Shown one piece after another: positions 54,700 through 63,988 of a stretch of DNA of 64,000 bases; the stretch's first letter is position 1, and the number at the start of each line of letters is the position of its first letter. This DNA comes from Phycomyces nitens. Its lineage: Eukaryota; Mucoromycota; Mucoromycetes; Mucorales; Phycomycetaceae. The stretch covers positions 434,001 through 498,000 of the forward strand of contig JAHRBC010000004.1 of the NCBI GenBank assembly GCA_022702545.1. The letters are read 5' to 3'. The notes beneath the pieces were generated by a model. The model made no database searches. It was not told the DNA's origin and worked only from the letters and a program-made list of their open reading frames with translations. The position numbers and the translations under genes are program-made.

Positions 54700-57600
54700 A
54701 TGAGTACCATATCCTCCTCTAACCCATCGCCGTCTACTACGGCACACACAATGTCGGCCGCCATGTCCCGATCCGGCTCCAATCTGTCCATCTTTCGAGA
54801 CCCAGCTGTCAACAATCCACCCACCGGTCGAGTAAACCGGTCCAGAAGAATGACAATGGGTGAAGACGACCTGTCCCGCAACATTAGCGCAGACTACCAG
54901 GAGATACAGATGCGTACACTAACAAAATGGGTCAATGTGCAACTCAGCCAAGTCAATGACTCCATCCAAAACATCGCCACCGATCTTCGGGACGGCAAAC
55001 GCCTATTAAAACTACTTGCTGTCGTCTCCAAAGATCCACCACCAAAACCAGAACGAATGAATATGCGGATCCACCAGCTTTCAAATGTCGCCCAAGCATT
55101 AAGCTTTCTCGAAACCCAAGTGGGCGCAGACTCGATGCCTGATATCGGCAACGAGGCAATTGTCAACGGCGACATGAAAAAGACACTTGCCCTGCTTTTT
55201 TTTATTATGCTTAAATATCAAATACAGCTTATCCTCAGCGACCATGGAAAAGACTATGGAACCTCTCTAGCTGTAAGTTTGTATTATTTGTTGGAGGGCC
55301 AGGTTTGATTGACTGATTCCATAGACCATATCCAACCGTCGTACCAGTCTGCAGGATCTACCACTCCTGGCTACTGAGAACAGCCAGCAGCAGCAACCAC
55401 CATCAAAACCTCTGCTTACTCTCCCAGGACGCAAAGGAACCTTGGCATTTGACAAGAATGGAAACACTAATACTTCTTCTGCCACAGATTCAAAGGTTGC
55501 GCTCCTATTCTGGGTCCGTATCCAGCTCGAAGACTATATTGCTGCGAGCATCATACCCTCTGTCCAGGACTTTTCAAGGTCCTGGCGCACAGGCCTAGCG
55601 TTTTGTTTGCTCATCCATCGTCACAACCCACTCTTGATACCCGATATCCTCTCACGTACAGACAGCCAAGACAAGTCTGTCTGGTTAGAGCTACTCACCC
55701 TTGCATTCGAACTAGCATCTGCTCACATGGGAATCTCAAACTACCTTGAACCAGCTGATTTGATCGATGTCGACCACCCACACGAACCAAGTGTTATGAT
55801 GTATGTGAGCGAATACTATAAAGTCATGTCTAGTTCACAGCGAGAGGAATCCCCTGCAACCCGCCAAGAAAAGACCCACACTCGCCGAGTACTGATAGCC
55901 AAAGCAACCGGAGGAGAGATTGAAGAAGACGAAGACGAAGTAGTAGTAGTAGAAGAGCAACCCACCTTTGACTCTCCTCCCTCTGACCTCACCATTCTGG
56001 CCAACAAGGCACCCCCAAGCCCACTATGCTTGAGTCCATCGTCTTCGGCATCGCTGCTGACTCCTGTGCCAGTGCCAATGCCCTCGGCAAGGCGCAAGAT
56101 TCCTAACCGACAATCAACCTTGTGTGAAGAGGACAAGGCACGGATCAAGGCCGATCTCAACAGTCGGCTTATGATGCAGTTGACAGGCCATCTGCCGCAC
56201 GGTGTCCATCCAGTGCTTGACCAGCTGCTCACAATCCATGACACCGTACTAACGTTTGTAAAGACTGGAACACGGACCATTGACGAAATACCTGAAGAAT
56301 TCGAACGATCTATTGCTGTTGCCGAATACATTGAAGCACTCGATAGCATGGAAGAACAGTCGATAAACGAGGCATTCTTGTTACAGGCTGCCCAAGAGGC
56401 TCGCACAACCCTTGTCACGCCACCCGAGACTGCGGACGATACTCTTATCCGCCTGACAGACCACCAGCGCGGACAGATTATACATCTTCACGATAACCTG
56501 GTAAAGGAATGGAAGGAGTTTACAGAGCTCCTAAAGTCCACAAAGACAGATCTGCTCTCAATCGAGTCTGATCTTATGGAGACCGAAAAAGGTGTCAAAT
56601 TATTTCAGCAAGAAGCCGATATGATCCAGGATTGTCTTTATCGCTTTTCCATCCGTGTCACTCAACTGCTCCCTGCCAAGAATGGCCAAAAGATACACCC
56701 TTTGAATGCCACGTCACTAGACCTACAGGCCTATGACGCTGATGTCAAACAGACCACCAGAGACTTTGACGGTGTCGAGTTGCGCTGGAGAACATTTCGT
56801 TCCTTTATCCGCGGCCTAAGTCCGGGAGTTCTGCAGCTGGTCCAGGGTCGTTCAAAGGATCTTCAGGAGAGGTTCGAAAGTCTGGGCGAGGCTGTGCGGG
56901 CATCGCGTCGCCAGTGCACTGACTACCGCCGAGCCATGACATTTGCCGAACGTTTTGTATCTCTGCACAGATCCCTGGAGGCCATTGAGGCCAAGATGAG
57001 CAGCAGCGAGAGAGCAACGACTGATGTAGTCATTGTTGATCTCGAGAACAAGGTCAGCCTTGTACGGTCAACCCTATATGCCTCTCGGGAAGAGTATAGT
57101 GATCTTATGGACCTCAAAGACCCACAGCTGCAAAAGCGTTTTGACGATGTACAGGATCGCTATGTCCGGGTACGCGATTGGGTTGACCAGATTCGTCAGT
57201 GGTTTGGAGAAGCAGAGCGTATCTCAAAATGGATCAATGCTCGCACGAGCACACTGGAAATCAGGCTGACAGAGGACTGGGAACCATTGGCCAAAGAAGT
57301 TATGCCCGAGAAGCAGGCTGCACGGTTACATGAAGAGCATCAAAAGATCAAGCGAGAAATTGAGCAGTTTAATGCTGACGACATGGACCGTCTCAGGGTC
57401 CATGTGAAATCTCTCACAGCCGAAAGCGACAGGATACACGATCTTTCACCAGCCGATACTTCCACAATCGAAATCACACTCAAAACCCTTAATGATCTAA
57501 ACCGGCTCTTGGTCTTGCTCGGAAAACGTACCCATTCTGTAGAGCTTCTGTGGCAGCGTTTGCAATGGGAACGCATGTTGATTGCAGCACTTCAGTGGAT

Positions 57601-63600: not shown

Positions 63601-63988
63601 AGGATATGTGCCAGATCCCAAAAACGAACTGGATGTTCAGCTTGGTCGTATTGTTAACGAGAGTCCGTATCAGATGAAGATTAAGATGGTCCAAGGCCAG
63701 GCTGGAAAGTATTGGTTCGGTGATGAACATCCTCGACTGGTGTATTGCCGTATCCTTCCCAGCCAACTTGTCATGGTCCGTGTTGGTGGTGGTTGGGTTG
63801 ATCTGACAAAGTTCTTGAAAGGTATGTAATGAATAACAAGTGATAGCTTTGGCTCATATTTTGTCTATTATCTAGATCATGGCCACCCAGAAGCCCTCAA
63901 GTCAGACCCCACAACCACTCAGTCTTCTTCGGCGTCTATCCTGGACAATAAGTCTGGAACCAATACACCTACACCCATGAATCGAAGG
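54700..63988 (+). CDS. giant spectraplakin-like protein: CH-CH-spectrin-like rod-GAS2 (3' end beyond window)
   Basis: Predicted cytoskeletal crosslinker. Exons 54700-55272, 55325-63821 and 63876-63988 give at least 3,061 residues; a GTAAGC donor at 63989 shows that the gene continues. Residues about 66-176 form calponin-homology domain 1 (LTKWVNVQLSQV, DLRDGKRLLKLLAVVS). Residues about 249-360 form CH2 (LLFWVRIQLEDYI, DFSRSWRTGLAFCLLIHRHN, DLIDVDHPHEPSVMMYVSEY), together an actin-binding module of the alpha-actinin/spectrin type. A Pro-rich hinge follows, then about 2,500 residues of charged helix with recurring Trp (QRLQWERMLIAALQWI, REWEPL-like and W-x-W spacing) that look like diverged spectrin repeats. 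A basic Ser/Pro-rich segment precedes a GAS2/GAR domain at about 2960-3024 (GKYWFGDEHPRLVYCRIL, VMVRVGGGWVDLTKFL), known to bind microtubules. The zinc-type Cys residues of animal GAR domains are not seen. The start is the first ATG in the open frame. Confidence 0.9.
63876..63988 (+). other. third exon of the spectraplakin-like gene, just after the GAR domain
   Basis: Acceptor TATCTAG at 63869-63875 joins ...FLK to DHGHPEALKSDP in frame, completing the end of the GAR domain, and continues as a Ser/Thr-rich tail (TTTQSSSASILDNKSGTNTP). The exon ends NRR before GTAAGC. Animal GAS2 proteins carry similar basic Ser-rich tails, often with SxIP motifs; none is visible in the part shown. Confidence 0.8.

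Follow-up and report, generated by a model that had tools for sequence, protein, structure and literature searches.

In the 64,000-nucleotide stretch of Phycomyces nitens DNA analysed here (contig JAHRBC010000004.1, positions 434,001 to 498,000; the window), one gene encodes a protein of 3,118 residues, termed W below, whose architecture is spectraplakin-like: two CH domains (CH1 and CH2), a rod of ~2,400 residues, a GAS2/GAR domain and a short tail. It is quite likely that W is a giant that cross-links actin filaments to microtubules in the manner of a spectraplakin; the genome encodes four giants of this family. Its action, i.e., actin-microtubule cross-linking, is probably spectraplakin-like as well. 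A fungal protein that exceeds 3,000 residues and combines tandem CH domains, a long rod and GAR had been proposed in a preliminary description of this DNA and is confirmed here. The gene is laid out as follows, with splice sites read by eye from the DNA letters, from genome sequence alone, and with the limits and repeat count of the rod being approximate.

54700 to 64162, forward strand: whole gene, three exons, its last 162 bases past the window end
54700..55272, forward strand: exon 1, coding for residues 1-191 with a Ser-rich head followed by CH1
54907..55221, forward strand: CH1 (residues 70-174)
55273..55324, forward strand: intron between CH1 and CH2, 52 nt, GT..AG
55325..63821, forward strand: exon 2, a single open frame covering the linker, CH2, the rod and almost the whole of GAR
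55490..55828, forward strand: CH2
56069..63361, forward strand: rod, ~2,400 residues (approximately 440-2870), with an inferred ~20 spectrin-like repeats
57164..58276, forward strand: three repeats modelled with AlphaFold2 (residues 805-1175)
62348..62671, forward strand: best repeat by the spectrin profile (residues 2533-2640), 35.1% in the whole-rod comparison and 87.9% as a four-row stack
62978..63310, forward strand: spectrin-profile repeat near the rod end (residues 2743-2853), 24.6% in the whole-rod comparison and 81.1% as a stack (66 of 103 columns), overlapping the Kar9-like stretch
63263..63592, forward strand: basic stretch preceding GAR (residues 2838-2947, with a net charge of +15 and an isoelectric point of 11.8), overlapping the rod end
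63638..63820, forward strand: GAS2/GAR as delimited by Pfam
63822..63875, forward strand: intron 2, 54 nt, GT..AG
63876..64000, forward strand: exon 3 (GAR end and C-terminal tail), continuing to the stop at 64162 outside the window

The start codon at 54700 agrees with the ATG proposed earlier; its reading frame is open from a stop immediately upstream of 54589. At the other end, the preliminary description had closed the gene at 63988 and placed an intron beyond it; the frame in fact continues to the stop at 64162, which makes such an intron unnecessary. CH2, the rod and nearly all of GAS2 are spanned by one 8.5-kb open frame of 2,834 codons, far longer than chance gives, and the paralogue P8 keeps 36% identity to it. 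Since CH2 through GAR form a single frame, the possibility that two genes had been taken for one was rejected.

The domains at both ends were identified by Pfam scans of exons 1 and 2, run separately and listing families at E up to 10. CH1 (E 2.1e-14), CH2 (E 4.1e-15) and GAS2 (E 3.6e-12) all exceed their curated cut-offs, in agreement with the CH pair and GAR reported earlier at the N-terminus and near the C-terminus, respectively; the GAS2 score also excludes a non-significant GAS2 match, an outcome that had been named as refuting the spectraplakin reading. Among PDB entries, CH1 is best matched by beta-spectrin (E 1.1e-22) and CH2 by alpha-actinin-like protein 1 (5bvr, E 5.7e-17), and the GAR domain alone retrieves the GAR of MACF1 (5ve9, E 2.1e-5) and GAS2 (E 0.0025). 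The end of GAR probably continues into exon 3. Additionally, W, P8 and a further paralogue, P1, have a tail motif in common within their final ~30 residues (DGDKYV, then MTKA in W), which is partly present in the tail of a fourth giant, P4.

The rod, as stated earlier and as the checked positions of its Trp residues bear out, is charged and helical with recurrent Trp. It is probably built of spectrin-fold repeats, a reading favoured by a periodicity of ~116 residues, by profile matches above those of reversed and shuffled controls and by a model of three repeats. When profile windows (in W coordinates, with up to four paralogues; 1,330 pairs) were compared with one another, disregarding trivial ten-column overlaps at offset 0, strong internal repeats appeared at offsets of 341-356, 466, 694 and 812-816, corresponding to ~3, 4, 6 and 7 units of ~116 residues. 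A profile built from 12 genuine spectrin repeats of PDB chains, located with a hand-written consensus, scored over 70% in five of 83 rod windows, over 30% in nine and over 10% in 15, versus none of 83 reversed windows at 10%. Ten rods with shuffled 28-column blocks, a procedure that retains most of the helix and heptad character, gave no window above 50%, and three of them had windows above 10% (best 32.8). When the repeats were stacked into seven classes, three classes matched spectrin clearly (A at 75.1, D at 87.9 and E at 81.1, the last across 66 of 103 columns), two weakly (B at 29.1 and F at 48.9) and two not (C at 2.0 and G at 2.2), with reversed stacks at or below 1.3. High scores between stacks A-B, A-C, B-C and C-F reflect overlapping intervals and were disregarded. 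In line with the profile matches, the spectrin fold is predicted for residues 805-1175, whose AlphaFold2 model (mean predicted local distance difference test score, pLDDT, 75.3) finds spectrin and plectin repeats as its best PDB fold matches, the match spanning three consecutive repeats. Residues 2470-3022 modelled alone reached a pLDDT of 47.7.

Two results weigh against a spectrin-type rod: Pfam lists no Spectrin family for the rod of W at E up to 10, and neither a HMMER search of the PDB with a rod-block profile nor a Pfam search with the rows of that profile returned spectrin. The paralogue P1 gives a Pfam Spectrin match below the cut-off (E 0.15). A genome search for the myosin-tail family, intended as a source of a coiled-coil control, had no matches. 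The earlier label of a spectrin-like rod is thus upheld by the profile and the fold prediction, but not by the Pfam Spectrin model. A rod consisting of a long coiled coil of unrelated type, spectrin-like in helix content only, would agree with the silence of Pfam and of the HMMER profile against the PDB, but is highly improbable, given that reversed and block-permuted rods lose most of the signal though helix content is kept and that the fold match takes in three consecutive repeats. The outcome described earlier as refuting, namely an unrelated coiled coil together with CH domains grouping only with fimbrin or alpha-actinin, was not seen.

W shares with the animal spectraplakins (MACF1/ACF7, dystonin and Shot) the CH-CH head, a long spectrin-fold rod, a GAR domain near the C-terminus and a length above 3,000 residues. 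In those proteins an EF-hand pair stands just before GAR, the principal isoforms have a plakin domain behind the CH pair, and the tail carries an SxIP motif that binds EB1. No EF-hand family, including the C-terminal EF-hands of the alpha-actinin type, was listed for W at E up to 10, nor for P8, P4 and P1 at E up to 1; at the sequence level, no plakin domain family was found by Pfam in any of the four giants; and no SxIP occurs in the tail of W, the only similar motifs being SIIP within CH2 and SLLP in the rod (2564). A further difference is the low-complexity linker of ~66 residues that separates CH1 from CH2 in W. Hence the spectraplakin reading holds for the layout, whereas membership in the animal family does not follow, as neither EF-hands nor a plakin domain was found. 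The type of CH pair and the spectrin-fold repeats are also shared with alpha-actinin and beta-spectrin, from which W differs in its terminal GAR and in having no EF-hands found, and, in the case of alpha-actinin, in its far longer rod. GAS2 and GAS2-like proteins likewise combine CH with GAR; they have one CH domain and no long rod.

GAS2 matches occur at six places in the genome, i.e., in the four giants and in two Kar9-like proteins, L012 and L013. These loci and a separate alpha-actinin-like gene are located as follows.

Contig C8: P8, 3,009 residues, CH-CH-rod-GAS2, with an intron behind CH1 (splice sites read by eye) whose position is close to that in W
Contig C4: P4, 2,900 residues, with one CH2-like CH domain (25.4 and 30.6 bits in two scans, cut-off 26)
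Contig C1: P1, a frame of 1,964 codons and, upstream, a CH1 frame presumed to join it, CH scores 26.8 and 32.9
C1:2002000-2009000: L012
C6:6429500-6436500: L013
Contig C5: alpha-actinin-like gene, frames between an EFhand_Ca_insen match and a CH fragment 1.7 kb away

In blastp comparisons, W and P8 are 34% identical over 2,602 columns and 46% over the head, and the identity of W to P4 and P1 is 19-31% over parts. No CH1 was found in P4 by the Pfam scan, and P1 is a shortened giant with a decayed CH1, which suggests that the paralogues may differ in actin binding. A gene resembling that of ribosomal protein eL42 lies upstream of W at 52516-52837 of the window, and a 322-bp stretch 95.3% identical to it is found ~7 kb upstream of P8 (L035:2784-3105, contig C8), a pairing that could result from a segmental or whole-genome duplication; the other neighbours of W had no match in the flanks compared.

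The origin of this architecture was approached through the CH pair. Against the PDB, the joined CH pair of W scores 138 bits with beta-spectrin, up to 132 with alpha-actinins, 125 with alpha-actinin-like protein 1 (5bvr), 118 with dystrophin, 117 with plectin, 101 with MACF1, 93 with filamin and 33 with a fimbrin-like protein; the CH pair of MACF1 is 36% identical to that of W and 34% to that of P8. Trees were built from ten CH pairs and then from 11, including the genome's own alpha-actinin; P1, with its CH1 too decayed, and P4, with one CH domain found, were left out. In the ten-row tree, W and P8 stand together (100/100) on a long branch, and the approximately unbiased test (p-AU) rejects neither their joining with plakins (0.146) nor that with actinins (0.163). 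The 11-row tree likewise rejects no grouping (p-AU 0.093 with plakins, 0.257 with the own alpha-actinin and 0.285 with all actinins). Fimbrin is far off, and the phylogeny does not discriminate among actinin, spectrin, dystrophin and plakin as neighbours of the fungal pair. The earlier idea that such cross-linkers are older than animals, put forward on condition of a homologous rod, is not established.

Two accounts compete over the origin, though not over the action, of the giants. In the first, which is plausible yet falls somewhat short of an even chance, a fungal alpha-actinin-like protein with a CH pair and spectrin repeats lengthened its rod, lost its EF-hands and gained GAR, with no common descent with animal spectraplakins. 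The EF-hands and plakin domain not found, the score of the CH pair with MACF1 (101 bits), which is below those with beta-spectrin (138) and alpha-actinin (132), and the lower p-AU with plakins than with the own alpha-actinin all speak for such an assembly. However, the tree rejects neither grouping, and the head of the genome's alpha-actinin shares 50-51% identity with the three chains of alpha-actinin used for comparison and 51% with beta-spectrin, but only 32-35% with the giants, so that the giants are not a recent offshoot of it. The impression that the genome has no alpha-actinin had itself been overturned by the EFhand_Ca_insen match near the CH fragment on contig C5.

In the second account, which is about as probable as the first, a CH-CH, spectrin-rod and GAR protein predates the animal-fungus split and was kept here, with Kar9 as a cut-down relative made of the last repeats, SxIP and GAR. 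The Kar9 family acts in spindle positioning. L012 and L013 contain a Pfam KAR9 domain above the cut-off together with GAS2, in frames of 964 and 1,055 codons, and carry an SxIP motif (TPSMIPR[AP]KTP) near the C-terminus, whereas the giants are longer, have no SxIP there and are not listed with KAR9 (PF08580) in the Pfam scans; no CH domains were found in L012 or L013. The start of GAR, approximately LD[VM]....I[VI]N..P, is common to both groups. Aligned over 301 columns, the L013/L012 Kar9 domain matches approximately residues 2536-2840 of W, at the rod end before GAR (P 46.1, E 2e-4); among 33 forward rod windows, scores above 2.5 were confined to the three that best cover these residues (46.1, 44.9 and 13.2), compared with at most 0.6 in 32 reversed windows and at most 16.2 in 40 block permutations. 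This weak, position-specific match hints at shared ancestry, a lead and not a result. Against kinship with Kar9, and with it against common descent, the same residues score 14.5% when the whole rod is compared, two-row profiles give 6.9% on another part of the rod, and the Kar9 structure 7ag9 was not significant (E 0.37) in a sequence search of the PDB with Kar9. The CH tree does not separate the two origins, and the EF-hands were not found. The fullest form of common descent, in which the cross-linker predates the split, four giants were kept in this genome and Kar9 is a spectraplakin relative without the actin head and most of the rod, relying on SxIP, is slightly less likely than either account.

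L012 and L013 each precede a gene for a biotin-dependent carboxylase, like pyruvate carboxylase (read by eye), and this pair at two loci is a duplicated segment. The other CH matches, of 18 in all, were read by eye as what we take to be fimbrin (four matches), two IQGAPs, a transgelin-like protein and three proteins of a single type that also have a PH domain. Chitin synthase has 13 matches in the genome, counted exon by exon, which, like the proteins with a Kar9 domain, supports a fungal source. Elsewhere in the window lie a sirohaem synthase-type gene with TP_methylase, NAD_binding_7 and Sirohm_synth domains (52996-54501) and, on the reverse strand, an open frame in which a histidine-kinase ATPase domain is combined with a response regulator domain (26034-27674).

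Judging from the domain families, the tandem CH head of W would bind F-actin, and GAR together with the basic stretch before it would bind the microtubule lattice. As a spectrin repeat is ~5 nm long, the ~20 spectrin-fold repeats between them could form a long spacer of ~100 nm. The four giants differ in actin head and rod length, and the proteins with a Kar9 domain, SxIP and GAR probably do a related job, linking microtubule plus ends. A role of the giants in hyphal polarity or transport may be envisaged on the same grounds. To our knowledge, giant direct actin-microtubule linkers have been treated mostly as a feature of animals. With a four-member family in a fungus, it can be tested whether this architecture was ancestral or arose on two occasions; the giants would also offer a simple possible origin for Kar9 and are candidates for long-distance coordination of actin and microtubules in hyphae.
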